Made by a program: the position numbers and the translations under genes. The notes beneath the pieces are model-generated. The model had not been told where the DNA came from and searched no databases. It saw only the letters and a program-made list of their open reading frames with translations. This document shows positions 17,414 to 34,825 of a stretch of 64,000 nucleotides of DNA, piece after piece. Position 1 is the first letter of the stretch, and every line of letters begins with the position of its first letter. The DNA is from Polytrichum commune (Eukaryota > Streptophyta > Polytrichopsida > Polytrichales > Polytrichaceae): positions 24,262,527 to 24,326,526 of the forward strand of contig OX485808.1 in the NCBI GenBank assembly GCA_950295325.1, given 5' to 3'.

Positions 17414-17471
17414 TTACTCTCCACTTGTGGAAGGTATAAATCGGTTGGCAAGAGTCCTCTCTCCTATACAA

Positions 17472-17774
17472 CTACACTAAATATGATATTTAGTGTTTGA
17501 TTAGATTTAGTATTTTACCACCCTACTATGCTCAACACTAATTTTCAATTCTTTGATAATTAGTGTTAGACATAAATGCGCCGCCGCCACCTTCCTTGTT
17601 GCCACCTCTTTCCTACTAAACACTAAATTCGTGCATGTAACTTTCACATATTACCATAGATGATATTTAGTGTTTGAGTTTACATTTAATGTTACTTACT
17701 TTCATAGGGTTAGTGATATTTAGTGTAGTGTTCGTATTTAGTGTATCTAACACTAAATATCATATTGAGTGTAG
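17472..17774. mobile_element. MITE with CTACACT termini
   Basis: The left terminus CTACACTAAATATGATATTT is mirrored at the right by an inverse ending AGTGTAG. Internal sequence around TTTCATAGGGTTAGTGATAT recurs, inverted, in the element at 27713-28062. Each terminus also has internal dyad symmetry (ACTAAATATGATATTTAGT). No TSD is clear. Confidence 0.65.
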
Positions 17775-18725
17775 TTTTAATGAGTACGTAAAGTTTGGGT
17801 TTTGTATATATGGTCTCAACATGTTATCAGAGTATATTTTACTAAAATAGAAACTTGATTAAGCTTAGTGTTCACCAACGTCCACAAAAGCTTGCATAGA
17901 GAGCATATTCACTTAGCGAAAGTCCCGTGTCAGAACGCTTACCAATATGCACTACGAGCATGAGACTTGGGCAACACATCATGTGTCAGTGAAAAGTATG
18001 CAAATCTATCGCATGCCAATAGCACCATGGTTAACAAACTAATTATCCCAAGTACTGTGTGTTACTCTTCGGAGTTACGCAATGGTGTAACTCATTTATG
18101 AGAATGTAATGTTTTATCAAGCAAAGTCATTTATGTTCATAATGTCTGAACAACATATTGAACTTTCATTAGTAAAAAAGTGAACAACCTATTGAACTTT
18201 CGTCATCGTAGGTTGATAGTAGGATGAGCGGAAAATGTTTTTAAATAATCAAGCTTAATGTTTTTGGACCTAATGAGTCAAATTGCCTAAATGGTTGGAA
18301 AAATAATCATAAGAATGTGTAATAACACTATATTCGGTATTTGGAGACTTTTTGTTGATTATGAGACTATATAAGGATGCACATTTCAAAAATGGACCAG
18401 TAATGACGACTAAAAATCCCATATGTATAATGGTATGCTACTATTATTATACATAAAGGCATGGAAGTGAACAAAAATGTGAGGCATACATGAAAATAGT
18501 TGCGTATGAAATGACAAATCGTTATGAATGGAAGGGAAGATGCGAAGAATGAATGGAAGTTGAATGAATTAATTGGGATAGAAATACAATTATAATGGAA
18601 ATACCATCAATGTCTTGAGTAACTTGGAATAGCATAGAAAGTAAGCACTTAAATATGTTCTACACCTAAGCCCATTTAGGGAGTCCGTCCCACTAGTACG
18701 CTTCTAGTCACACTAGTCCGACCCA
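17775..18725. other. Non-coding DNA downstream of the ParB/methyltransferase-like gene
   Basis: AT-rich with no supported gene. It lies 3' of the minus-strand gene that ends at 18726 and may include its terminator region. Confidence 0.4.
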
Positions 18726-19699
18726 CTATTTTTTTTTTGCGGCTAAGTCCTTTTTTTTGGCGGCCTCCATGGCTCTAAAAATCTCAGGCCCACGACTGAA
18801 TCCTTGTGTGTTGCCTGGATAGGAATATGTGTCGTTCTTGCATGTTTCAGGACGCGCTCCCGAATTGTACGAGGTGGTATTATAAGTAGAATACGAGGGC
18901 GTTTGCGAAAGGGAACGTCTTGCGCTTCTCCGGAGGGCCAGACAACGATCGGACTCAGAAGATGCGGCCTTGAGGGCGTGCCTATCCAAGGAGGACGTGG
19001 AGGAGGGCCGGGCACCAAGCGAGCGGGTAGCCACCTGCGAAACAACGTCATAGGAAGATAAGAATAGGAATGGAGTGGGGATGGTTTGGGATGGGCGCTC
19101 GTAAAGAGAACGGCACGCACACGGAAGACAAGGAAAGCAAAAGCGGGAAAGGGGTTTAGGGTTGAGGAGGGCACCTTGGCTTTGGGGACGTCCATGCGGG
19201 GAACGGTGGGAACGAGGAGGGCGTCGACGGGAGCATCCGGAGCAGATGGAACTATTGCAATGTTGGATGGCGGGGGGGAGTCGAGGCGCGGAGGGCCCAC
19301 GATCGCGGAGGACGTTGCGGGGGGAGGAACGGAGTTGGCGGGTGAGGTGTGGCAACGGGGGCCTTCCATGCGGAGACGGCGGCTCGGCCCGCGACGAGCG
19401 ACGGCGTCGTCCCTCGAGGGCGAGAGGTGTCCCAAACGAACGACCGTCCGTTTCTCCTTGGAGAGGGGGGAGGGCGACGGGGCGTACACGCGGGGGACAA
19501 GTGCTGGGGGCGGGCTGTTGACGACGCCGTCGTCGATGCCGACGTCGTGGGAGTAATCCACGGCCGAGGCCGCGTCGACTGCCGAGAAGTGGTAGAGGGA
19601 TGGCATTTGGAAGTCCGTGACGTCGCGGGAAGGGGATGCGGGGGGTGAGAGGGGACGGGAAGAGCCGTCGACCACAGGGGCGTCGCATATGGGGGCAGA
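18726..19699 (-). CDS. C-terminal exons of the ParB/methyltransferase-like/FCP1-like gene
   Basis: Two coding blocks are joined by a 140-bp intron (19035-19174) with GTG...CAG borders. The upstream block (19699-19175) begins after a TAG acceptor in phase 0. It encodes a Ser/Pro/Asp-rich, probably disordered segment. The downstream block (19034-18726) encodes a basic Ser/Arg-rich segment ending in a Lys-rich tail (MEAAKKKDLAAKKK) and a stop. Both introns are phase 0, like those upstream, so these are probably the last exons of the gene starting at 25536. A separate short gene is possible. No enzyme motif is seen. GC content is clearly higher than in the surrounding AT-rich DNA. Confidence 0.5.
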
Positions 19700-19810
19700 C
19701 TATGGGCAAGAACAAGAACAACAACAATCACAACAACAAAAGACATCCAAAAACGGAGCAAGCAATAGATATGTGAACCACATGATAACAAGCAAAGACA
19801 TGGAGGCATT

Positions 19811-20578
19811 TCAAATCAATTTATTGAGTTTGGCGAGCCTCATGATGCTCTTATATACATTATCGCGGGGGCTTAGCGCCACATTGCCGAAGGGGTTGGA
19901 CCTAACAAAGAATGGGATGCTACCGGCGTGGAGCACGAGCCTTCTAAGGTAGGGGGCTAGCTTATCGACCAAAAAGGTGTCTTGCCTATCGCCGGTCCAA
20001 GTGTCCGGGAAGATGACGTTGCCCAGGGGGTTCAACACGCTCTTGGTGGGACTGTCGTCGATGAGGACGGTGTTCTCAGGAGTCGGCCACCACCCGTGGG
20101 GCGTCCCCTGCAGACGGGGGACGCCTTGCCAGAGTCTTGAGCGGAGGACCTTGAGGAACTGTTGTCCTCCGCCTCGACCGCCAAACTTGGGCACCGGTTG
20201 GCCTTTCTCGTCGAGCAGCTCGTCGCATTCCTCTTGGCCGAGGACGAGGCAAGGGCGCGGGAGATCACGGAACAAGAAGTCGACGATGGGCTCCGTGTTC
20301 TCCATGACCATGGAGCTCCACACAACGACGTGGGCGAACTCGACCACCTCGCGAAGGAAGTCGCGCAGGCCGGGACGGGCGCGGACAGCCTTGCGGTTTA
20401 TGAGGGTGTCGAGCTCGCCGTCATAGTCCCTTTCGTCGGGGTGACGGAAGGGACGCGTGGGAACCCTGGGGATGTGTTGGGTGTGACACAAGACCCCGTT
20501 GAGGTCAAAAACTATAAAAGGCTTGTTCCTGGTTCGAGGTCCACTGGTCGAGGGGTTGCGACCTATCTCCGGGGGGTC
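19811..20578 (-). CDS. FCP1/SCP-like HAD phosphatase domain exon
   Basis: The exon starts after a CAG-type acceptor at 20579-20580. The protein begins with a basic Pro-rich stretch and then KPFIVFDLNGVL, the HAD motif I. RPGLRDFLREV and VVVWSS follow (motif II, Ser/Thr at its end), then TVLIDDSPTKS (motif IV, DD). This is the fold of FCP1/SCP (NIF) phosphatases, known to act on phosphoserine proteins such as the RNA polymerase II tail. Motif I normally reads DxDx(T/V), but here the second Asp, the acid/base, is Asn, so activity is doubtful. Either the frame ends at the TGA at 19811-19813, or a phase-0 donor (AAT|GTATAT, exon end 19859) splices to 19699. Its phase-0 join to the preceding exon argues for one long gene. 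Confidence 0.65.
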   Translation of the reverse strand, partial: DPPEIGRNPSTSGPRTRNKPFIVFDLNGVLCHTQHIPRVPTRPFRHPDERDYDGELDTLINRKAVRARPGLRDFLREVVEFAHVVVWSSMVMENTEPIVDFLFRDLPRPCLVLGQEECDELLDEKGQPVPKFGGRGGGQQFLKVLRSRLWQGVPRLQGTPHGWWPTPENTVLIDDSPTKSVLNPLGNVIFPDTWTGDRQDTFLVDKLAPYLRRLVLHAGSIPFFVRSNPFGNVALSPRDNVYKSIMRLAKLNKLI

Positions 20579-21174
20579 CTGTGATGAACAACGCGACTAG
20601 TTTAATTCTATGATCCAATAATGAAATTTTTGCGTTCAAAATAAAGACGATGTATTATGGGAAAAGAGGAGGAAGTAAGGAGGGTTCAAGGAAATATGCA
20701 CAAGGGCACAATTGCGAACGAGCGTTCGTGAATGAAGGCTGCGGGGGCGGTGCGCATCATTTACGAACGCTCGTTCGTGAGCGCGGATGCATACATATAC
20801 GAACGCTCGTTCACGAAGGAAGTCAAGAGGGGGTCGCACAATTTTACGAACGAGCATTCGTGAGTGAGGTGTGTATGCAAAGAATGCAAAGACGCGAGAA
20901 TATGCAATAAGTTGTGGTGATGCGAGCAGAGATCGTCTGCTCATATATTAATTCGGTGAATATGTACAATTGTCTCGCGTGATAATCTATCAAAATTTCC
21001 TAAGGAAAAAATTCAGTGTCCTACAAAATTGATCGGTCCAAGGGATCACGTAGAAAAGGCTCGCGCGGGCAACGTGATGTCGATGGAGTTGAAGCGCCAA
21101 GAACACAACGCGGGGGTTAGTGATGTTACGAACGCGCGTTCGTAAAACATTTGGCATTCTCAAAGATGAGTTAC

Positions 21175-22578
21175 CTCTTTGGTTAACGAATGCGCGTTCG
21201 TAATATCCATTGGGGCAGCAGCCTCTGGATCCATGACCTCCGCCGGACGCTCCGCCTGAGACGACTGGGTCTGTTGGATGAGATCCACGTCGTCGTCCCC
21301 GCCCAGGTCGAGTCTCTCCATGCGGACATCCTCCATGTGCGCGGATGGATGTCGTTCCTGTTCAGGGCTCTCCACGACCATCCCACGCGGACCTGCCGAG
21401 TCATTGGGGCTCCCCTGCGTTTCCTCCACAATGACCATGTCAGTGTGTTGCGCAGTGTCATCGCCCCTCCTATCTACAACCCTTGGGACAACGGTGAAAG
21501 AGGCCGTGTCCGTGTCTGTGGGCAGTCCTACCCTTGAAGGGGGAGGGGTCAGGACTGCCGGACCTGAAGATTCACGAACGCGCGTTCGTAAATCTTCGTC
21601 CTCCCTTAGTGCCGCCGTGATTGCATCGTGGGAGGTTGAGGCGGTCGCCGTCACCTCCGGGGGCAATGGACTTCCCGCCGGCGTTGGGTGTAGCGTTGTT
21701 TGGTGGGAAGGCCTTCCTTGGTACATGACTGGAGGTGGGGGCTGTGAGGGGTATCCTCCAGGGGGGAAGGGGTAAGGTTGCTGGACCGGCCCAGAGAAGC
21801 TCTGCATGTTTCTGAGCATCTCGAAGATGGCGTCGGTTTTGGCCGCTGATTCCCTCAGCTGCTCTTGCAGCCTGGCCAGATGCTTGGCGCTCTCCTCCTG
21901 GGCTGCAGCCATCTCCTCCTTCATCTTCGCCTCCAGCTTGGCGTTGAGCTCAGAGACGGTAAGTGCCTCCTCCTTCACCCGCTTGTTCTTGTCGTAGTCC
22001 ACCCCAAGCTCGGCCATGATGTCCATGTCCCCCTCGTCCTCGTCTAAGACCTCGATGATTGCTCCCGGCGGCAACTCCACGTAGGGAGTCTTCTTCATCC
22101 TCCTCCTCGTGTTGCAGAAGAGGTCCAAAGATGGACGCGAGCGTTGGTCGAGGATGTCCAGGGTTTCCATCTTCGGAACCACGGCGGGCCTTGGAGACTG
22201 TGACGTCGAGCATCCGCCTGGCGTTCCGAAAGGCTCCGCAAGAGACGTTCGCGCGGGGAGGAGGTCCAGGGTTGTCCCCGCGGACAACCCTGTATAACCA
22301 CCCGGAGTCCCTTAAGGGTCGGGAAGATCTGTCGTTGGCGGCAAGATCCGAAGCGGGGGTACGTCGAAGGACTGCAGAATGGCGTCCACGTTGGCAGAGG
22401 GGGCGGGCTCGTCGTCCTCTGAATCGTGGACTGGTATGCCCTCGTCGGCGGGCATACTGAAGTCCATCTTTGGGACAGAGATGTCCTTGAGGTCCATCGT
22501 CGACGCCTTCGCACGGTGGATCTTGAAGTCTTCTTCGTCGATAGCGTCAACGAAGGTGTTGACTACGAGACCCATCAT
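21175..22578 (-). CDS. Linker exon of the ParB/methyltransferase-like gene, with an in-frame stop
   Basis: The exon is bounded by an ACAG acceptor at its 5' end and a GTAACT donor after residues SLTKE, both phase 0. It completes the methyltransferase-like motif I region with GLVVNTFVDAIDEEDF. It then encodes an acidic linker, a helical coiled-coil-like segment (KEEALTVSELNAKLEAKMKE and on to about FEMLRNMQ) and a Gly/Pro-rich, then acidic tail. One TAA at 22312-22314 interrupts an otherwise continuous 468-codon frame. It could be a nonsense mutation or the true end of a shorter protein. Two copies of the ACGAACG palindrome (21183-21203 and 21573-21591) lie inside the frame and are translated. 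Confidence 0.5.
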
Positions 22579-22801
22579 CTGTGAGAAGAGAGCAATAAGG
22601 TCAGAAAATACGAACGCACGTTCGTAAACATCAAAGCGTGGCGTGCAACGAGTTTCAAGCATTACATTACGAAGGGGGTTATGTTTACGAACGAGTGTTC
22701 GTAAACATGAATGCGTCACGTGCAGCGACTTTGAAACAATGCGTTAAGAAGTTGGTTAACTTTACGAACGAGCGTTCGTAAATGGAGTCTGGACAATTTA
22801 C

Positions 22802-25536
22802 CATGGCCGCATACATGAATTTGGAGCCTCCACATACGTTGTATACCGTCTCTCCACTTATAACCAGACTCTGCAATATAGAGACGTAGAACTCCATCCT
22901 GAGTTCCATGGCGGGGAAGATGGTGTAGAGGGTCTCTTGCAGCAGATCCTTGGGAGGGGGATGCGGGATGCTGTAGATTTTCTTGAACGTGTTGTTCGCC
23001 TTGATAGGCGGTCGCCCATCCCTAAGCTCATTGTACGTCAAGAAAATCAGGTTGACCGCTCCCACCTGCTTGTTGCCCCTGGCCTCGTTGATGGCCACGA
23101 TCCCCTCCGTCTTCGCTGGCACGTACGTGCTGTGAAAGATGCTGTACTCGAATTTGATCTTCTGCTCGTACAGCTCTGTGACGACCGACAACTTCTCCTG
23201 TTCGACTATCCACAGCCAAACGTGTGGCTCCCTCATGGCCGGCGATTTGAACTCCATGAACTTGGCCATGAAGGGGTTGTAGAAGGGAATGTCCTTCCCC
23301 CCCTGCCTTGACGCACCCGGGATCCCCCTGAAATCGATCAGGGCAAAAGGGCAACCCCGTCGATCCTCCCTCACCTCGGCCCTGCTTATGGTGCCGTCCC
23401 ACTTGGAAAATGTGACCCTCTCCACGCCGGAGGTCATCACGCAAAACCTTGCCACCCCTTCGAATGTGGCGTTCCTCTTCCTCTCCAAAAATTGTATGTA
23501 CAGCATTACCTCGTGGGGATCCGTGTCGGTTTTCTTAGTCCTTTTGTTCCCCTTCAACTTCAAAACAGAGGCGTTCTCCTTGACCAGACTGCGCATGGAG
23601 GCTCCGTTGATGTTGTAGTCGACCTTTAACAATTGCCATTGCGGCCAGTTGATGTCGCCGTTGACTTCAAAGATTTTATACTCTGGTGCGAGTACGTTCA
23701 ATTCTCTCATAGCAGCAGTCTTCAGCTTCCGGTGGTCACACCACTCCTTGATAGAGTACGTGTCGGGCTTGTGCTTTGGCCTCTTCAAAAAGATCTTGGG
23801 ATAGGGAAGGTTTCTTCCCACGGTGTTCCCAAGAATATGAATCGCACACCTCTTCAGCTCTGACTCCGTCAATTCCTGGAGGTGTCTAAAGAACTTCCTC
23901 AGTAGTGGGGGCGCCTCACCGGTTTTTTCCGTGCTGTACTTCTCCTCGGTGTCGGGATTGACCAAATCGCCCGAGCTGTGTGCATCAAAAAACTGTGTCC
24001 ACAAGTCCCAGGTGTCCCTGTTGCAGCAGATCAGTCTGAGCTCACCCTTCAGCTCAAGCACTGACTTGGTGGTGGTGGACTTTATATCGATGGAAGAGAA
24101 CTTGTCTACCATCGCGTCGCAAAATGCCTGCACAAAACAAGATGTCAGTGTTGCAATTAATACGAACGCACGTTCGTAAATTGAGTATGTAATTGAAGTT
24201 TCCATGAATCTAACACTTTACGAACGTTCGTTCGTAAACTCACCTTCCATTGGGGAGACTGGTTCTTGGCGTTCTCCCTTTCCTTTGGTGGGCATCCGTG
24301 TGCCACCCAGACGTCTCTGGCAGCCACTATGTTAGCCGCCCACGAAGCCTCGAACGCCTTGATTTTGTTCCCCGAGTTCAGGAAGGTTGAAATCTTGCGC
24401 AGCTTGTCCCAATCGTCCGACCAGACCAAGAACGCCTTCCAGTACCGCAGGTCAGCCTTCAGCTCGTGCTGGAAGTTGTCGTCCTTGAGGATCTGTTGCG
24501 ACGCCTCCAAGCTGTGCTGACCATCTATAATCCAGAATTCTCCATTCTGGATTCGCGGCCAATCCACCTCTGTCGGTCGGGATGTCAGCCCCTTGGGCAT
24601 GACGCAGATTGTCTGTCTATCCCACTTGACGTTATTCATGAGGTTGTTGATTTGCCACTTCACCCCACCGCTCTCGCGAGACCTTACCACCCACTTGTTG
24701 GGTGACTTTTCGCACTTGAAGCAGTCCACGTTGAACGTGAAGTGGCGCCCCATGGGCCAGCAATCCTTCGAGTAATTATTGAAATCTCGTAGGATCTTCG
24801 TTGCCTTCACCGCATCTGGATTCTCACCCTTCTTTAAAGGGGTTGGCATCACGGGAGGAGAGCTCACCTCAGCGCCCTCTGTTACTCTAGACCTCTCCAT
24901 TTCGTCCCGGGACCTCTTCGATGGCGTGGAATGACGGTTGGGACCCTCCGTCACCCTGCTCGCGGAAGGCACCGGCTTGGGTGCACTTCTCGATCCTCCT
25001 GCTCCGGATGCGGATGGTTTCCGTGGGCTCTTCTTCTTCTTGTTGGCTTCCGCGACCGCGCTATTGTACTTGGAGATATTCAAGGAGAGCGCGGCCAACT
25101 TCCTTGCTGTCCAGTACAAGCTCAGGGCGTACTTCGTGAAGAGGTCCTTGAGGAAGTGTTTGGCATCAGCCACTACGTTATTTTCCGCGTATGTGTAGGA
25201 GAAACTATGTCTCCTGTACTCTAACAATAGGTTAATGTGATCCTTCTTGTTTTTCATGTCTAGAATCACATAATCTCCTTTTGCCTCAATTGATTCTAAT
25301 TCCCAAGTCTTCATCTGCACCCATTGCTCTGGCTGGTCCGGCGTCGTTTCCAGCTCGTATGTGAAGCGAAGACAGAAAAGACCGTCTGATGTCTTCTCTG
25401 GCAGTACCGTCCATTCCCCTATGAAGTCCTCCTTGGGGACATAATTATCGTTTCCGTTGGGGTCGGACACTGACTCTGGTAGTTGATCTATCTGCACTGC
25501 GAACATCTCAATGGCGCTTCTGCTCGGTCTGGCCAT
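22802..25536 (-). CDS. ParB-like (DGQHS) and methyltransferase-like protein, exons 1-2
   Basis: Exon 1 (25536-24244, 431 codons) and exon 2 (24127-22802, 442 codons) are joined by a 116-bp phase-0 intron. The ATG at 25536 directly follows a CTGCAG acceptor, so a 5' UTR intron is likely. Residues about 1-170 form an unrecognised N-domain. A Lys/Pro/Ser linker follows. Around residues 330-400 lies a ParB/DGQHR-type core: FWIIDGQHSLEAS, then WKAFLVWS, then a conserved-looking Asn (FLNSGNK). Exon 2 ends with VNLIFLTYNELRDG (motif IV position, lacking DPPY) and ETVYNVCGGSKFMYAAM, a motif I-like Gly-rich turn. The order IV then I fits the beta class of amino-methyltransferases. The missing catalytic tetrapeptide makes activity uncertain. 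No breaks are seen in these two exons. Confidence 0.5.
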
Positions 25537-26450
25537 CTGCAGAGCACATAAACATTTAGTATTGCGTTTACGAACGAGCGTTCGTAATTGACAAGCAAAT
25601 CATATACACTAATCATTGAACTATGGCTATGGATACCCGTGAGAAGTTGTAATGATGTCTTCGCTGATTTCATTTACGAACGATCGTTCGTAAAGAATGT
25701 GGTTGCTAAGGTGTATTTGACACAAGTTTACGAACGTGCGTTCGTATTGTTTCTAAACAAGTCCACGAGTTGTCCAGGGTTATCTAATTTCCACGAGGGT
25801 TGTTCGAATTTCCATGAGCATCTTCTAAATAGGTGAATTAATACTTTAGTTCTTATTTACGAACGTGCGTTCGTAAATTATGCTACTTGGGACTGCAGAC
25901 AATTACCATGAAGGGTTTGGTATATTGTTATAGTTTGTGATTACGAACGTTCGTTCGTATTTTTGTATGTGTAATTGAATTTGAGGATTTTCTGATGTAC
26001 AGGGTATACACGAATATACGAACGTGCGTTCGTAAAAATGGAGGGTGAGGTGTGTATTTACGAAAGCATGTTCGTATATGTTTGTGGGGTAAGGCATGTA
26101 TTCACGCCACATTTACGAACGAACGTTCGTAAATGTGGTCATCTGGGATTAGGAAATGGTATATTTATTTATATACATATATCCGTACATATACGTATAA
26201 ATATTGGTATGAATGTTGCAATCTGGCATTGTTCATGATCCTGCAACTCGTGATCAGATTGATGAAACACAAGTGAAAAATGGAATCAGAACAAAATTGC
26301 GAGTCAGTTAGTGATAGTTCAGAATGAAGAGGAAAGTGTTATTTCATACAAAACATGACATACCTCATAATGCAGAAAACAAATCACAAGGAATTCATCA
26401 AACAATAATTTCAGATTGTGAAGGAGTGATTTGTAAAGGAAACCTGTACT
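25537..26450 (-). promoter_or_regulatory. Palindrome-rich 5' region or UTR intron of the ParB/methyltransferase-like gene
   Basis: Eight palindromes occur in 570 bp (25567-26139), spaced about 40-130 bp. The segment ends at a CTGCAG acceptor directly before the ATG at 25536. The likely content is a 5' UTR intron plus promoter-proximal DNA. No coding frame is supported. Confidence 0.45.
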
Positions 26451-26589
26451 CACATTGAATTGTTGCACACAAATCCTCCTGCCTCCTACTGAGAAATCCA
26501 GAAATCCTCACAAATGCACACCAAATTGTCTTTCAAAAGCGATGAATTCGCTTTCAATTGCAATTTCACTTTGTCACACTCTCAAGCCT

Positions 26590-26930
26590 TCACAACTTAT
26601 ATGCAAATCCTACACAAACCCTGATGTACACAACTCACAAGCTTCAGAAAACTCAAGCTTTCTAAAACTCTCAAGCTTTCCTACTCTCAACCTCTCAAGC
26701 TTTCCAAAACTCTCAACCTCTCAACCACCCTGAAACTCTCAACCTCTCAACCTTTCTAAAACTCTCTACCTCTCAATCTTTCTAAAACTCAAGCTCTCAA
26801 GCTTTCTAAAACTCTAAACCTCTCAAGCTTTCTAAAACTCTCTACCTCTCAATCTTTCTAAAACTCTAAACCTCTCAAGCTTTCTATAACTCTCAACCTC
26901 TCAAGCTTTCCTACTCTCAAGGTTCTGACA
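26590..26930. repeat. CT-rich degenerate tandem repeat
   Basis: Short units of the type CTCTCAAGCTTTCTAAAACT alternate with CTCAACCTCTCAA variants. It may lie in the leader or promoter of the minus-strand gene. Confidence 0.75.
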
Positions 26931-27099
26931 ACACAACAAAACAACATTCACAATGAGGCTCTAAAATTGGCAAGGGCTTCGCCGCACCTAAGAGCTCCTC
27001 TCCTCCTCTGCTCCAAATGACAAATGAGGAGGAGAGAGAGGGGCGCGGGGAGGTAGCCGGCGCCGCTAGGGTTTCCAAGCGGCGGCCACGTGGCTAGTG

Positions 27100-27320
27100 G
27101 CCACTGGCGAGGGCTGGGATGGGGGAGGGGGATGGGGATGTGGGATGGGGATGGGGATGGGGATGGGGGGAGGGAATGGGGAGGGGATGAGGATGGGAGG
27201 GGATGGGGAGGGGATGGGATGGGGAGGGGATGGGGATGGGATGGGATGGGATGGGGAGGGGATGGGATGAGGATGGGATGGGAGAAGGGGAGGGGGAGGG
27301 GATGGGGATGAGGGGATACC
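27100..27320 (+). repeat. G-rich simple repeat (GGGGAT/GGGAT)n
   Basis: Over 200 bp of GGGGAT, GGGAT and GGGGAG units with many G-runs on the plus strand. The density of runs of three or more G makes G-quadruplex formation plausible. Frames through it are artefacts. Confidence 0.9.
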
Positions 27321-27712
27321 ATGGGGACATGGAGGGATGAGGGTTCAGGAAAAATGAAATAGGAGATGGGAGGAGCTTAGTTTAGGGACATAAATTTGAC
27401 TTTCCGTATCCCCTTAGTACCTTGACATATGGATTCCTTGTAAACATATTTTAGAAAAGTATGTTCAGATAATTTGTATTTAACAATTCATGTCATTTAG
27501 TAGGTTTTCGATGAAGAATCCACCCCCAAGATGCAAATGTCGTTTTCATGAACGAGACATCTTTAAAGTTCTTCAATGGTTCCTCAAATAAATATTACAT
27601 ATATAAATGACTCAATTTGAATTGTGGAGAGGGGCTATCTGATTCTCCACAAGAGGTGGATGAAAATTCAATTTTCAATACGATGTCATTAATTTAATGA
27701 GGTGTTAGCTTG

Positions 27713-28062
27713 AACCACCCTTAATATGATATTTAGTGTTAGATACTCTAAATACAAACGCATAGTACACTAAATATCACTAACCCTATGAAAGTAACTA
27801 CTATTCATTGCGAACTCAAACACTTAATTTCAACTATAATGGTAATATGTAGATGTCGCATGCACAAATTTTGTGTAAGGAAATTAATATGAAAAAAACA
27901 ATTAACAATGATAAAAACATAAAGGACATGGTAGTAGGAAATGTGGTGGCCCATTTAATATGTCCAACACTAATTATCAAAGAATTGAAATTTAGTGTTG
28001 ACCATGATAGTGTAACAACACTATATTATACAATCAAACACTAAATATCATATTTAGTGTAG
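27713..28062. mobile_element. MITE with CTACACT termini, second copy
   Basis: Inverted relative of the element at 17472-17774. The right end AGTGTAG and the internal ACACTAAATATCACTAACCC block match the inverse of that copy. The left end has drifted (about ACCACCCTTAATATGATATT). No coding capacity. Confidence 0.65.
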
Positions 28063-28250
28063 TGTATTTTAGCCATGTGGTCGCATGTTTTGCTAGTAGT
28101 ATCAATTGATAGTATGAGCTTCTCATAAATTAAGTTAGTGCGATATGGATTATTTAGCAGTCGATATTGTTCGTGTATATAATGCATTGAAGTAACGATC
28201 TAAACCCTAAGCCCGGAAACCACATAGACAACTCTTTCACAAACTCTATA

Positions 28251-28296
28251 CCCAAACCCCAAACCCCAAACCCCAAACCCTAAACCCTAAACCCTA
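28251..28296 (+). repeat. Interstitial telomere-like repeat
   Basis: About four CCCCAAA-type units are followed by three CCCTAAA units, the plant (Arabidopsis-type) telomere repeat. The short length suggests an interstitial tract, for example from break repair. Confidence 0.85.
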
Positions 28297-28299
28297 CAT

Positions 28300-29600
28300 C
28301 TTTTTATCTTACCAACCTTTCTTATATATGGCCATGTTGTGGTCTATGCGCATCATGTCAAAATGGTCTACCAATGTTGGTTCGATTGGAAATTGCTTTA
28401 TTTGGGTCATAGCAACTATAATAATCTAGACTCATGCCAATAATTGTCATTTTGATATAAAACATTGGTTTAGGGGGTGAAGAGTGAATTTTGAAATGTT
28501 AGCCCTTTCACCTTAATAGTTTTGAGTGCAATTTGATCACACAATACACACTTAGTCTTATTATAACATGAATGGTTTAAGACTTCAACTTAAATCAACA
28601 GTTAAGCTATGGTCATGCACATACTTCTTGTTGCAAATAATACAAATATATAATTGTAAGTGCATACTATTGTATGCACCATTCCAAATTAGTTATCCAT
28701 TTCCACACCATGGTTGACCTAAAGTGAATTTCCAATAGGACGTCAAGTCATTTAATTAGGTGTCAACTTGAACTAATAATCGAATACTAGTGCATCAAAC
28801 TTTAATTTTCACCAATGATGAATTGCAACAATGATTCATATTAATATGGGCCGATGTTTGGTGAGCCTCCAGTTCCAAATGTCCTCAATTTACCTAGCAC
28901 AAGCCATTATGGATTAAGCGACTTTTTATTGGTATTCATGCACTTGGTGACCATATTACAAGCATTTTTTTTATGTGAATCATATGACACCTACAATTTT
29001 AGGGGATTCCACAATATGTTCTTAGCCACTCTTACCTCATTGTGTGTGTGAATATATATATCACTTAGACCTTCATCAATTCACTTGGACTTTACACCTT
29101 AGTCGCAAATAATTTAATACTCAATGTTAACCCATCAACCCATATATATATAATATAATAACCCATATATAAAATAGTAAAATAGTAAAATATACATATA
29201 TATACATATAAATATAGACATATAGACATATAGACATATTTTCGTGCGACCTTGGTAACAACTAAGGTGTGCGACGGATTTATAGATTTACAATATGTTG
29301 CGTGCACGCAAGACATGTTCCATACATAATGCTATTTATATATTGCGCATGGATGGAATGGCATATTGTTAGGTCAAAGTAGGCGGCAGGAATCCGCTTT
29401 TTAAATAGCATCCAAGGGATTTTGAACCATCGGGGGGAAGGTACTTAAAGCTTTTCCCCTTCACAGAAGAGCTCTTTTCTGCGGCACATCCAAGTGTGCG
29501 CTCCACAGACTTGACTGGAACGCGCTCAAACCATTTTCTTGTGCGCCAACCCTACACCTCCCAGGTCCACTACAGACTGCACATACCCTTATATACCGCC
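28300..29600. other. AT-rich non-coding DNA
   Basis: No supported gene. It includes a TATA/CATA-rich low-complexity patch near 29.14-29.24 kb. It separates the G-rich tract and MITE from the palindrome-rich upstream region of the transposase. Confidence 0.4.
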
Positions 29601-30836
29601 GCAAATACCGGACGTTTACGAACGCACGTTCGTAAACGTGAGTTGGTAGCACATGTACAATAGGTACATCGATATGATGTGAGTTGTTTACGAACGTGCG
29701 TTCGTAAGTTGATCACAACCGTACTCGACATTGAGTTACTTATAGACAGAACTAGGCACGAAAATTGTGTCGATGATATACGAACGTACGTTCATATATC
29801 TACCTTCAAGACCCAGACGCGTATGAGTTCCCATGTAATCGTTTTCTCCAACGGAACATCTGATGATGGGATATTTACGAACGTGCGTTCGTAAATATCA
29901 TCTGGGATTATTTTTCAAGAATCCAAAAACATTCCTTAATTTATACACTTCCGTGCATTGGCCAGGTTAACAATATGCAAGTTAAATACGAACGAGCGTT
30001 CGTATTTCTCACTACCATTTGTGTCCGCGGAGAATTATGTTAGTTGAATTTTACGAACGCACGTTCGTAAATACCACCTGTCCACCGTCCACGCATCCAC
30101 CAACAGACCTGTTGACGCAAGCATGTGTAGAGGACTACACCGTGTTTATGATAGATACGAACGCTCGTTTGTATCTATGCAATCATGATTTTAGTGATAG
30201 ATGTCGACTGTCATTTTCCACTGGTTATTGGATTTCATGTATCCCTGTAACGTGGCTATAGATATCTCTATTCGGACGTGTCCAATCATTTTTTCCAAAC
30301 ACTGTCGCGGCTGTAACATACATATGATCGGTCGTTTGCATCCGCCCCTAAATTTCGGCTGGAACTTACGAACGATCGTTCGTAAACACTCGCCCATCAA
30401 ATATGATGCTTACTGCATGTGGATAAAGTGGCAAGTATATTTTAGGTGCTCTTATAATATGTCCCATTTAGATTTTATTGTATATTGGGTTGATGTTTTC
30501 GTCCGCGCGTTCGTGAATATATGTGCTTGTGTTGTCCCTTGGTGGTGGACAACCCTTCCAATGTTTTATTGGCGACTCGACCCAAAGCCCTTCACGGGTA
30601 ATATATATCGGAATGGGGTTTCGTTGTGCAGGGACGTCTGAGTCCCGTGTAGGATTTGCATGTCATGGGGCTGTTGTCGAACGCACGTTCGTCTTCATAT
30701 GTGAGGTCCCGCAACGGTGTGGCGAGAGTTGTTTGTGATTTTTGAGCCATATATGTAGGCATATCTCGTATCCGCTTTTGTATGCATTGCGGTGGTTGTT
30801 GTGTTGGTCATTTTACTGGTGGTTTGTTTAGGTTGG
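29601..30836 (+). promoter_or_regulatory. Palindrome-rich region upstream of the transposase
   Basis: Nine clear copies and one degenerate copy of the ACGAACG palindrome (29612 to 30693), at 65-215-bp spacing, precede the transposase frame. In DNA transposons such subterminal or upstream repeats commonly bind the transposase or an accessory protein. That role is inferred here. Confidence 0.45.
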
Positions 30837-33800
30837 ATGGCGATGCACGTTGGATATAGTTCATTGGAGTTGTCCACAAAAGCTTCCTCTTCCGATGATG
30901 ACTGTGAACTATCTTCGCCATCGGTGGGTAGTCATGGCATGGCAAATGCCATGGGTGGATTTGTGGATGCATCCTCCCACGAATCATTTGAAGCGCACGA
31001 ACAATCTATACGTTCCGGGGATGACAATGATGACATTCCGTTATATGCCGATTTCGGTAGGGAGCAATGGGTGGGCCTTGATGTTGTTCTTTTCAACGAT
31101 GTTGGTGTCCCGGTGGCAGATGGCATATGTAGAAACTCTGATCCCCGTGATTGTGTGGATGCCAACCCCCTTGGTCCCGATGATGTGGGTGTGTGCATAT
31201 TGAATTCTTTGCTTCCGCTTGACGTCCCGGTGACATGGAGATTTTCCTTGCGTCGATGGCCTCTTTGTCGGGTTCTCCATGACGGAGTAAGCTTGTTGGA
31301 CCATGAGCGCCGCCATAATCAAACGCAATTAGCTTTGTTGGCCAAAATACGTCCTCGCAAAGGCCTACGCAGATATGATTCTAACCGTGTGCCTCGTGGA
31401 GATAAATAACGTCGACGGGATCGCATATTGGGAGACGAATCTATCCGTTTTGTGTCCGCCAAGGACTGTTGCGAGAGGAAATGTTGCCAATTTTTCCTGC
31501 AGGAGAAAATTAAGTCCCTACGTCAAGAGATGTGGCTTGCGGATTTCCGTATGAGATCGGCAAAGAAACTCGAGGTCCACAGAAATGTCCACATTGACAC
31601 CCATGGGCGTAAAGTGGTCACACTTGAGAATGTGGAAGTGTGTTGTACTGCGTGATATACCATCCACGCCGTGTCAAAGTCTGACTTTTATAGGTTTCAA
31701 AAATATTCATTGTTGGATCGCCGCTCTCGATTTCATGGCAATTCGGGCACAAAGAAACCTAGGGAGGCTACACTCCAAGCCTCCGCGACACTCTCCACTA
31801 TCATAGTCCCATTGGCCGATGCAATGCCCCACAAGACGAGGACATTGTCGTCAGGGGAGAAAGTTGTACAAATGGTGTTGCCCACGGGTACAAAATGGAA
31901 GAACATATTAACGGACATCAATGAAGTGGGTCGCATAGCGGGATGTGGGCCCATTTCTTTGTCCAAGTTGAGTGTGATTAAAAACCAACAGTTTGCCGAA
32001 TACATTTTGAAGAGACCTGGGGACAAGTTCGCTAGGTGTACGACGTGTGAAAAATACAAAGGTCTTCGAGACGCCCACCCCATAGGCACCGAATCCCACA
32101 CTAGACACCAAGCAAAATATATTGAACATGTCAACAACCAAGAGGCTCACCGTCAAGATTACTACAAGAACCGTGCTCTATCCATAATGAGGCCTACAGA
32201 GGTTCTAACAATCATCCATGATAAAATGGACCACGCCAAGACCGCATGCCCTTGTTATGCACGCAAAATAAAGGCCACGGATGGACTCTTCAAGTTGCAC
32301 GTATCTGTCACAGGTTTGTATTGAATCACAAATATGTATTCAAATTCTCTCAAATTTTACTGGGTGTGTTTGCCAAATGTCCAATTTCATACCTCCGTTT
32401 GGAGTTGTCGTTGTTATTGTTATTGTTCAAGCATCGTTTGTTTTTTTTCGCAGGGATGATTGCCCATGGCCATGGAGACGTAAAGTATGCCCATTATGGG
32501 TTGGATTTTTACCCTGGCGATGCTAACCACACAGTGGGTTCATTTGCAAAACTCTTGCACGATCTGGAGAAGCCGCCGTTACATTCATCACGTGCATTTT
32601 TTGATGGTTGTGGAACGACACCCCTTTACGAAGCAGTGTTTGCGGGGAAGGAGGTTTGTATGTCGTCATTGCCAGAACCACCGGGAGAACCTATTTGTGT
32701 AAAACCATTGCCTCCAACTCTTCACGTTCAACTTGATAATTGCGCGAAAGACAACAAATGTCGATACGTATTTTGTTTTTGGTCATTGCTCGTGGCGAAA
32801 GGAATCTTCAAGGAGGTGTTTGTCGTTTTTGATGGTGGGACATACACACAACGACATTGATGCATCATTCGGACGGTGGAGTATGAAGTTGCATGAAGAA
32901 GATTTTCCAACCATACCTCTTCTTATGAACTCGTATATGGATTTGGACCATATGCCAGTAATTCCGCACATGATTGAGGAAGTACCAGATTTCAAGGCCT
33001 TCATCAAGTCATACATGTTGAAGGGAGGGGACCGTTTGGTGGGGCATACCAAAGCACAACAATTCCGATTCTATATAAGGGATGATGGTCTCCCAGCCAT
33101 GCAATTCAAGCTTTTGTGCACATCTCCTAATTGGGGACCGGATGATGGTATACTCGTATGGCGTCAAGACAATGATGGGAAATGTTTGCTCCCGGATGGG
33201 GATCCAAAGCCTTGCAAACCCGATCCCATGAGAAATGGGCCGGAAATCATCAAAGGCATATCCGGATTCATTGAATATTGGAAAGAGTTGTGTGAGGAGG
33301 ACATCACTAGACGTGTTAGAGATACTCATGAACCTTTGATTGCGTATTGGGATCGTATTCGCTCGGCCCTAATGACACTTGGTGGTGACACCCGTACAAC
33401 TTTAACACAAGGATTTTGGCCACAAAGTCGTTTGACGGTTGTTGAGTCCGACACCATGGTTTTTAGCAATGAAGACGTTCGTGAAGAGTTCGCAATGGAC
33501 GAGCATTACGTTGGCCCTGCCCGCAATCGACCGGCACCGTCGTTTCGTATAGGTGTTGATTGCCATGAAGGTTATTTGGTCCTTGTACGAGCAGGGGATG
33601 AGGAACATCCCAAGCCAATTTGGTTGGTGAAAGCATTGTCTTCACCCAATTTTGTTCGAATTAGCCCCAACTTTCGTCAGATTGAGGTGGAATATTGTCG
33701 TCCAAGTACTAAAGACCAGAACGTGCTACGCACTTATTTAGGTTGGGATACCAAAAAGAATTTTAAGTGGACAGTGGACTCAGCGTACACACCGGTTTGG

Positions 33801-33971
33801 ATAAACACTGATACTATACTTTGTGCTTGGAAGCCGCGCAAAGGTTCCAAAACAGAAACAATGACCATCCCCCAAAAACATATAGATTTTGCCAAAGACA
33901 ACTTGGCACGTATTGCAGCTGCGGAAAATGACGCCGATAATGGATATGAAGCGGAAGACGGAGATGTGTAA
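30837..33971 (+). pseudogene. DUF7869-type DDE transposase pseudogene
   Basis: A protein of about 995 codons in two exons, 30837-32313 and 32454-33971, around a 140-bp GT...CAG intron. From N to C there is an acidic N-domain; a Cys-rich segment (CCERKCCQFF); a helical domain with CTTCEKYKG; HGHGDVKYAHYG and FYPGDANHT; then LDNCAKDNKCRYVF and FLMVGHTHNDIDASFGRWS, which look like the core acidic residues of a DDE-type nuclease; and a C-domain ending in an acidic tail. I relate the LDN...GHTHxDID pattern to DUF7869, a domain of transposon-derived eukaryotic proteins. The frame has TAA at 31407-31409, TGA at 31653-31655 and a frameshift near 32825, so this copy cannot make the full protein. It shares palindromes with the divergent gene at 18.7-25.5 kb. 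Confidence 0.7.
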
Positions 33972-34825
33972 ACATAACATAGGTGGGAGTTCATGGCGAA
34001 AAACATGGACGCTTAGTAGACTTGGTTTTTAATAGACTTCATGGACTTGTCACACTCCATTGTGGTATACGTTTGGGATGTGCCATCCAAATTCATAAGA
34101 GCCTTACTTATGGGATGCGCACCCCAAATTCTATAATGACATAAACCATTTGTTTTTTTAGATTTAATTGTTATTTTCCACATGGAGCTCATGTTTGCAT
34201 TTTAATTGACATTCTCTATTTTTAGAAATGAGAATATTCTTTACGTGCAACTTTTTAAATCGTTATGTTCTTGATGTTCCCAATATTCCGTATGCCCACA
34301 ATATTGGCATCCCAAACTATGGGCATATTTTATTTTGAGACTTTCGAAAGTCTCCGATTAACGAATATAGTGTTTAATGTTAGGAAATTTGGTGTATTCT
34401 AGAATGAGGTCAAAGTCAGATACTCACATGCAATGACTACACTATTATACCTATCACACACATTCACTTTGACAATCACACGAAGTGAAGTTGACATTCA
34501 TGCGTGACAAATTGAAGAACTCAAAATCAAGAGTTCTAAAAGCTTGAGAGAAGCAAAGTTTGCTAGAAAAAATGTGGGGAAAGTCTAGATAAGATATGTC
34601 ATGTGCCTAAATATATACATATTTGCTCGTTTCCTTTCATGAACGTTTTTATAGACCGCCTGAACCTATTTTTCTGAATTAAATTAGTCGAGCCTTGTTC
34701 CTGATTCGGTTGAAGTTGGAGACTTCAGTAGAATTACTGATCGTTTTAGAAGAATCTATAAAAAAAATATACCTCCTCAAATGAGTGAAAGCAAAACCGG
34801 AAGATGTCAACATGTAACCGGTTGG
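33972..34825. other. Non-coding DNA downstream of the transposase
   Basis: AT-rich and without palindromes of the ACGAACG type. No gene is seen. A right-hand element terminus matching the left side was searched for by eye and not found. Confidence 0.4.

Follow-up and report, generated by a model that had tools for sequence, protein, structure and literature searches.

Clade-specific palindromes in CACTA-ended transposons of the moss Polytrichum commune as candidate sites of an element-encoded ParB-like protein

In a stretch of 64,000 nucleotides from the moss Polytrichum commune (contig OX485808.1, positions 24,262,527 to 24,326,526; hereafter, the window) we describe a CACTA-ended transposon with two divergent genes, one for a putative DUF7869 transposase and the other for a ParB-like protein with a NIF-type phosphatase domain, whose non-coding DNA is dotted with the palindrome ACGAACG-NN-CGTTCGT (motif 1, m1). 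Judging from sequence comparisons, it is very likely that the ParB-like protein binds these palindromes, and fairly probable that they are its cognate sites within the scheme described in the Discussion. An earlier note on this DNA had proposed that a protein of the element reads the sites. This proposal is now strongly, although indirectly, supported, as the motif changes together with the clade of the ParB-like protein and the intron sites are kept.

Results

Three palindromes follow three clades of ParB-like proteins

Genome-wide (408 Mb), m1 has 5,602 exact occurrences against 4 of the reversed pattern. Five m1 clusters were retrieved on one contig of the genome (C1), and all overlap the element: clusters B, C and E include both genes, cluster D only exon 4 and the NIF domain, and cluster A is a derivative. 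The earlier note had asked whether the motif is equally common in unrelated DNA and whether other copies of the element have it; both answers favour a motif that belongs to the element. In viral contigs, each of the 98 stretches with m1 holds a single site (98/98), which we take as background.

Copy E adjoins another element, in which the ParB-like exon pieces show an identity of only 23-41%. In this neighbour m1 is absent, and a different palindrome, TGGGTCG-NN-CGACCCA (m2), is found both ahead of the start codon and in the intron that follows the ParB exon. Exact m2 sites number 10,055 in the genome against 1 for the control, and they occur 3 to 13 times in all nine retrieved loci of clade-2 ParB genes (73-94% identical to homologue P0014), which hold no m1 and no m3. 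A third clade, located through homologue P0002, carries ACGGACG-NN-CGTCCGT (m3), differing from m1 by one base per half-site, in 4/4 loci and 4 to 8 times in each; m3 has 1,394 copies genome-wide (control, 1), and of the first 50 listed, 40 fall within paired terminal repeats, which cover 0.6% of the stretch. Clade-1 elements carry m1 in 4/4 cases. The genome searches scored 97 of 1086, 86 of 1306, 53 of 1860 and 87 of 1076 candidates.

The same association was found in 54 homologous proteins from short public contigs (ena, jgi, lgn, ncbi), whose open frames often extend into the next intron, so that the motifs are readable as peptides. Leaving out the form common to m1 and m3, peptides of m1 were found in 14 of 16 clade-1 proteins, of m2 in 6 of 14 clade-2 proteins and of m3 in 9 of 24 clade-3 proteins, with no crossed case. 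A tree was built of 56 ParB cores, 18 from the genome and 38 of the 54 homologues (14 of the exon-3 type and two short ones were omitted), 16 of them without a motif label. Each motif corresponds to one well-supported clade among the 40 labelled rows and the tree requires two motif changes, the minimum possible, whereas shuffled labels gave a mean of 19.0 and none of 200 was as low. As near-copies cluster under any label, the weight lies on the two motif switches and not on the 40 rows. A ParB identity of 45-49% goes with one changed base per arm, and at 34-35% the arms differ for the most part. We dropped an alignment that included all 54 homologues, since exon-2 and exon-3 proteins were misaligned in it. 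In one clade-2 subclade (P0013, P0023-P0026) no motif peptide could be read, and the 87 scored genome matches include no close member of it (best, 72%); this subclade may use an unseen m2 or a fourth motif.

A host factor, for instance a methyl-sensitive transcription factor whose site the element exploits, could be suited to the four CpGs that an m1 site holds. However, a motif that tracks the ParB clade and the coexistence of three motifs in one genome make this explanation highly improbable.

The motif moved with the ParB-like gene and not with the transposase

Between the window copy and a clade-3 element, three pieces of the transposase are 78, 85 and 84% identical and the single retrieved end of the latter matches the terminal repeat exactly, while the ParB-like gene is 45% identical in exon 2, 54% in exon 3, 32% in exon 4 and 40% in the NIF domain. 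For a clade-2 element, the transposase pieces reach 57, 75 and 61%, ParB exon 2 reaches 34% and the single retrieved end has one mismatch. Since the transposase and the end stay closer while the ParB-like gene diverges, the motif has moved with the latter.

CACTA-type elements are known to carry subterminal motifs for their transposase, and the palindromes might be such sites, required for transposition. Yet they lie internally, and they changed while the transposase remained 78-85% identical and the end unchanged. Moreover, 4/4 miniature inverted-repeat transposable elements (MITEs; 225-252 bp, L139-L142) with intact ends hold no palindrome at up to 2 mismatches, and the sole site of a 6.8-kb derivative is one weak m2 match, so that mobility seems not to need the palindromes. 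We therefore regard transposase binding as very unlikely, and a cis-regulatory role of the sites, rather than one in transposition, can be proposed with good confidence. Exact sites number 6 and 4 in two derivatives with a retained transposase.

Palindromes lie mostly in non-coding DNA and, in intron 2, are kept while surroundings drift

In the window, m1 has 20 exact matches (0.00 expected from shuffles) and, at up to 2 mismatches, 30 sites against 0.08 expected, spanning 19436..30692, with no further site anywhere else in the 64 kb. About 29 copies had been announced for 20714..30693; 29 were found there, plus the one at 19436. By the gene model, 9 lie upstream of the transposase gene, 8 in the leader of the ParB-like gene, 2, 3 and 5 in introns 2, 3 and 4, and 3 in coding DNA (Table 1). 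The recurrence described earlier is confirmed. The mostly non-coding location is borne out by densities, with 1 mismatch allowed (28 sites), of 3.53 per kb in non-coding against 0.33 per kb in coding DNA. Across four elements (the window copy, B and, as far as retrieved, a clade-3 and a clade-2 element) coding DNA has 0-0.34 sites per kb and non-coding DNA 1.5-4.0. The central NN is free, as had been reported, and the TTT/AAA flanks of the core are strongly conserved.

The window copy, B and E share sites 9 and 66-72 bp into intron 2 and 20-23 bp into intron 3, as well as two exon-4 sites, several sites within intron 4 and one 351-362 bp past exon 5. In intron 2 of four copies, 28/28 fixed motif bases are identical in all six pairs against 55-75% of the other aligned bases. 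The drift of surroundings around kept palindromes, which the earlier note had asked to verify, is seen in intron 2 and less so in the leader and in intron 3, where B and E lack the middle one of the window copy's sites and 28-34 of 42 motif bases are identical. Exon 4 of the clade-2 genes of two elements also has two coding sites, of m2, with peptides unrelated to the clade-1 ones, which argues that the DNA and not the peptide is retained.

Many site clusters are regularly spaced arrays (for example 32, 39, 40, 45, 57 and 135 bp), as a neutrally spreading minisatellite unit would form. However, the flanks around the sites of intron 2 and exon 4 are unrelated, and the 28 fixed bases of intron 2 were kept amid drift, so we give this explanation hardly any credit. 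The palindromes could also act as RNA or DNA hairpins in splicing, stability or as small-RNA precursors. A few m1 sites are perfect palindromes of 28-32 bp, and outside TTT/AAA the pairing of the flanks exceeds that of shuffles at positions 5, 6 and 14 for m1, 4 for m2 and 4-6, 8 and 10 for m3, out of 16 flank positions (the core arms, fixed by site selection, are uninformative here). The covariation of the arms claimed earlier is thus borne out in part, at a few flank positions. Against hairpins, the arms are one fixed sequence per clade in thousands of copies with no compensating drift, and the large cluster upstream of the transposase gene lies outside the coding transcripts as modelled; a hairpin function appears extremely unlikely.

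The CpG record is mixed

We used the CpG record as a rough proxy for past methylation. The methylation-sensitive reading of the sites that the earlier note had also raised may apply, and the CpG footprint is mixed. With sites masked, the observed/expected CpG ratio in the window is 1.23 for the upstream cluster, 1.40 for introns 2-4 and 0.70 for the leader, compared with 0.42-0.57 in the 3-kb gap between the two genes and in the flanks. This initial contrast shrank under a systematic comparison of ten loci, which pooled gave 0.79-0.87 within 150 bp of sites vs 0.56-0.63 beyond. Among single mismatches of the core, CpG transitions account for 18/42 in m1, 7/32 in m2 and 3/15 in m3, with no clear excess over the share of core bases lying in CpGs. 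Taken together, this mixed record decides neither for nor against anti-silencing, and plain autoregulation stays a serious rival.

According to the latter, the ParB-like protein would repress or co-ordinate both divergent promoters and limit copy number, like plasmid KorB. The site clusters do flank the 5' regions of both genes, and KorB is among the top fold matches. A promoter switch, however, needs none of the sites found in introns 2-4, in exon 4 and past exon 5, as far as about 6 kb from the ParB start, and arrays persist in derivatives without an intact ParB gene. We consider autoregulation as the whole explanation rather unlikely, while the case for anti-silencing over plain autoregulation falls just short of probable.

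The element and its genes

Table 1. Coordinates of the element, its genes and its m1 palindromes in the window
Feature	Position	Strand	Basis or remark
CACTA-ended transposon copy, 16,047 bp, two divergent genes, decayed	18326..34372		homology limits and inverted ends
Terminal inverted repeat, ParB-gene side	18326..18351	+	CACTATATTCG-N6-GGAGACTTT
Terminal inverted repeat, transposase side	34347..34372	-	CACTATATTCG-N6-GGAGACTTT
DUF7869 putative transposase gene	30759..33971	+	PF25273 E 7.2e-18, 1.5e-15; open reading frames (ORFs)
Exon 2, ParB-like gene	24244..25536	-	ORF and splice model; ATG at 25536; IIDGQHS region
Exon 3, ParB-like gene, domain without assignment	22802..24127	-	homologues of exon-3 type, e.g. 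P0003-P0005
Exon 4, low-complexity linker	21175..22578	-	one in-frame stop, which B and E lack
Exon 5, NIF/FCP-SCP-like phosphatase domain	19811..20578	-	PF03031 E 1.9e-16
Probable exon 6	18743..19699	-	ORF; similar ORF (by eye) after NIF in ParB2 and ParB3 elements
9 m1 palindromes (6 exact), transposase gene upstream	29618..30692		cluster equally placed in copies B, C, E
8 m1 palindromes (7 exact), 5' leader of ParB-like gene	25570..26130		pattern matches and gene model
2 exact m1 palindromes, intron 2	24162..24235		one 9 bp past donor site
3 m1 palindromes (2 exact), intron 3	22610..22779		77-bp spacing; middle one missing in B, E
5 m1 palindromes (2 exact), intron 4	20714..21143		
Coding m1 palindrome, exon 4, peptide LRTRVRES	21574..21589		retained in copies B, E
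Coding m1 palindrome, exon 4	21186..21201		1 mismatch in window copy, exact in B, E
m1 palindrome, 1 mismatch, probable exon 6	19436..19451		B, E sites equidistant, also 1 mismatch

Further copies of the element in this genome served to set its limits and placed the ends at 18326 and 34372; an inverted-repeat pair of AACACTAAATATCAT units, at 17467-17776 outside the element and 27713-28063 inside it, had been considered as the ends and was rejected, and these units are probably MITE-like insertions. Genome-wide, exact matches number 436+445 for the end pattern and 0 for the control pattern. Among the first 100 listed ends there are 26 plus/minus pairs less than 30 kb apart, and the sizes among the matches listed are 15.7-25.4 kb (16 pairs), 6.8-9.7 kb (6) and about 200 bp (4), the 6.8-9.7-kb pairs being derivatives and the smallest MITEs. 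On contig C1 the listed exact pairs bracket 6/13 clade-1, 4/8 clade-3 and 0/10 clade-2 ParB exon matches, the last perhaps because the only clade-2 end retrieved departs from the pattern by one base. The terminal repeats begin with CACTA, as membership of the CACTA (EnSpm) group requires; inspection by eye of the window copy and of 8/8 derivatives gave no clear 3-bp target-site duplication.

CACTA (EnSpm) transposons carry a TNP2-type transposase domain; Pfam matched only DUF7869 in the transposase of the window, whose frame is broken by stops and a frame change, and a literature search found no mention of this domain. Relatives of the transposase and of the ParB-like protein were found by tblastn in the clade-2 and clade-3 elements and in copies B, C and E; in E the retrieved stretch ends before the transposase does.

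Between the divergent genes, 26600-29600 is a stretch of 3 kb without palindromes and with low CpG (0.42) that holds a pyrimidine-rich repeat array at about 26631-26947, an GGGGATGGGGAGG-type array at about 27115-27335 and plant-type telomere-like repeats near 28255. Copies B, C and E show a site-free gap of comparable length.

Exons 2-5 of the ParB-like gene join in one phase (splice sites inspected), exon 5 being in phase 0 with exon 4, and the leader probably holds an intron whose acceptor is visible and whose donor is only presumed. A ParB-CTPase fold was predicted for exon 2 through homologue P0038, which also matched profile phrog_1033 (E 0.0075; E 0.096 for P0002, and not listed for P0001, P0012 and P0014); according to these models, the exon-2 part has a ParB/Srx-type fold. 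The full-length model of P0002 had a predicted local distance difference test score (pLDDT) of 49.9, and its PDB search was empty at E 1e-3.

A C-terminal stretch of exon 3 (GETVYNVFGGSKFMYAAM-like) resembles a degenerate DNA-methyltransferase motif I, which, if true, would link the protein to the algal ParB-methyltransferase fusions. A degenerate methyltransferase was unsupported by Pfam, NCBIfam and PDB profiles, with no such domain in the 16 proteins of the exon-3 alignment (Pfam, E up to 5) or in 7 proteins (NCBIfam).

Each of the three element types has the NIF domain (E 1.9e-16, 4.4e-13 and 2.4e-15), with DLNGVL as its catalytic motif (window 19811-20578, L138:2746-3588, L136:858-1637). 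The usual motif of NIF-type phosphatases carries a second Asp where DLNGVL carries Asn, and the domain may be inactive or altered.

Two derivatives of about 9.5 kb (L107-L109 at C1:639072-648558, and L146) have intact ends and 33 and 23 exact m1 sites in two arrays, no ParB match, a transposase fragment (47% over 49 residues) and an NIF fragment (58-61%). By their sequence, they retain sites but not the putative reader.

Discussion

Several observations weigh against sites read by the ParB-like protein to counter silencing. CpG retention near sites is modest overall, absent in a clade-2 element (0.39, 0.53) and weak in a clade-3 one (0.54, 0.72). A lone m1 site occurs in 2/4 clade-3 loci. The 23 and 33 sites of derivatives in which neither the ParB nor the transposase gene is intact, and the weak m2 match as the sole site of the 6.8-kb derivative, count on this side too. 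Identity in the leader is 61-91% for the aligned motif columns vs 42-91% elsewhere, as sites are gained and lost there. Regarding the tree, the genome rows all come from one genome, near-copies inflate the clustering and, with three clades, only two motif switches were seen. Exons 3 and 4 and the NIF domain diverged along with exon 2, so any of them may be the reading part. In the protein, the GxxR nucleotide motif is replaced by an invariant G-Q-H-S in 29 aligned sequences (correspondence by eye), no helix-turn-helix (HTH) was identified and the exon-3-type proteins gave no convincing Pfam match.

VANDAL elements have a MULE-type transposase and a protein with the VANC domain, while Pfam gives DUF7869 and NIF in the window and no VANC-like domain in the ParB homologues. 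The parallel with VANDAL and VANC drawn in the earlier note is therefore good as a way of working, and does not extend to membership, since our elements have DUF7869 and CACTA ends. In both systems an element-encoded protein is accompanied by short non-coding motifs, often in tandem repeats (PMC5735166, PMC10398659), which differ among related elements, and co-evolution has been proposed for VANC. VANC works from family-specific non-coding motifs (PMC5735166; PMC10398659), in Arabidopsis VANDALs strings of 8-9 nt, YAGTATTAY and AGTTGTCC/AC (PMC5735166); the word stem 'palindrom' appears nowhere in the main text of that paper, whereas the present sites are 16-bp 7-NN-7 palindromes. Loss of methylation was demonstrated for VANDALs, while the present family is known from sequence alone.

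A related arrangement is found in Ectocarpus, where the giant DNA transposon Sola1-1 carries a ParB-like plus DNA methyltransferase gene on the strand opposite the Sola1 transposase, and according to its authors, proteins of this kind may bind the element that encodes them and modify it epigenetically (PMC12477816). That ParB-like proteins bind their own element has thus already been suggested in print; candidate target sites are identified here, while the text examined of PMC12477816 gives none. Unlike the algal ParB-methyltransferase proteins, ours gave no methyltransferase match in Pfam, and an NIF phosphatase domain follows the ParB-like part. For green and red algae the same paper cites further reports of such accessory proteins (Iyer 2011; Petroll 2025). 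A literature search, which largely missed subscription papers, found no described target palindrome of such elements.

With bacterial ParB-parS, Noc and its binding site (NBS), and KorB, the family shares the predicted ParB-CTPase fold and 16-bp palindromic candidate sites; published abstracts give a length of 16 bp for parS and NBS. It differs in belonging to a eukaryotic transposon, in GQHS for GxxR and in the extra NIF and weakly PH-like domains; no HTH was identified, and no ParA partner turned up, although ParA was not searched for. A survey of the ParB-CTPase fold states that mobile elements often carry it and that it is often joined to further domains, methyltransferases among them, with sulfiredoxin as its commonest eukaryotic form, and the main text of the same paper has 0 occurrences of 'transpos' and 'plant' (PMC12704722).

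In the scheme that we propose, a CACTA-ended family with a putative transposase gene and a divergent ParB-like/NIF-phosphatase gene would maintain many palindromes in its non-coding DNA, transcribed introns included, and each ParB clade would recognise its own 16-bp 7-NN-7 palindrome. The ParB-like protein would bind between the divergent genes and in the introns, probably as a dimer, and possibly spread as bacterial ParB does. Once bound, it would mark the element and hold its transcription units open or tune them, the likeliest way being, as with VANC, to antagonise silencing by the host. More tentatively, we can imagine a parS-like code of self-recognition in which the ParB-type protein loads at clade-specific palindromes, spreads and blocks host silencing of the element, perhaps bringing a domain like the phosphatases of the RNA polymerase II C-terminal domain to introns, with half-site steps giving new specificities that isolate lineages.

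The published suggestion on algal transposon ParB-like proteins gains here named candidate target sites, and binding, spreading, nucleotide use and removal of silencing become directly testable. Three protein clades, three motifs and thousands of sites in one genome form a natural series of specificities, with one shift that took a single base per half-site, and offer ready-made, possibly orthogonal eukaryotic ParB/palindrome pairs. If the scheme is true, a self-recognition like that of VANC arose from unrelated parts. In this sense, DNA recognition of their own making would be a means by which genomic parasites may know, protect or control their own copies.

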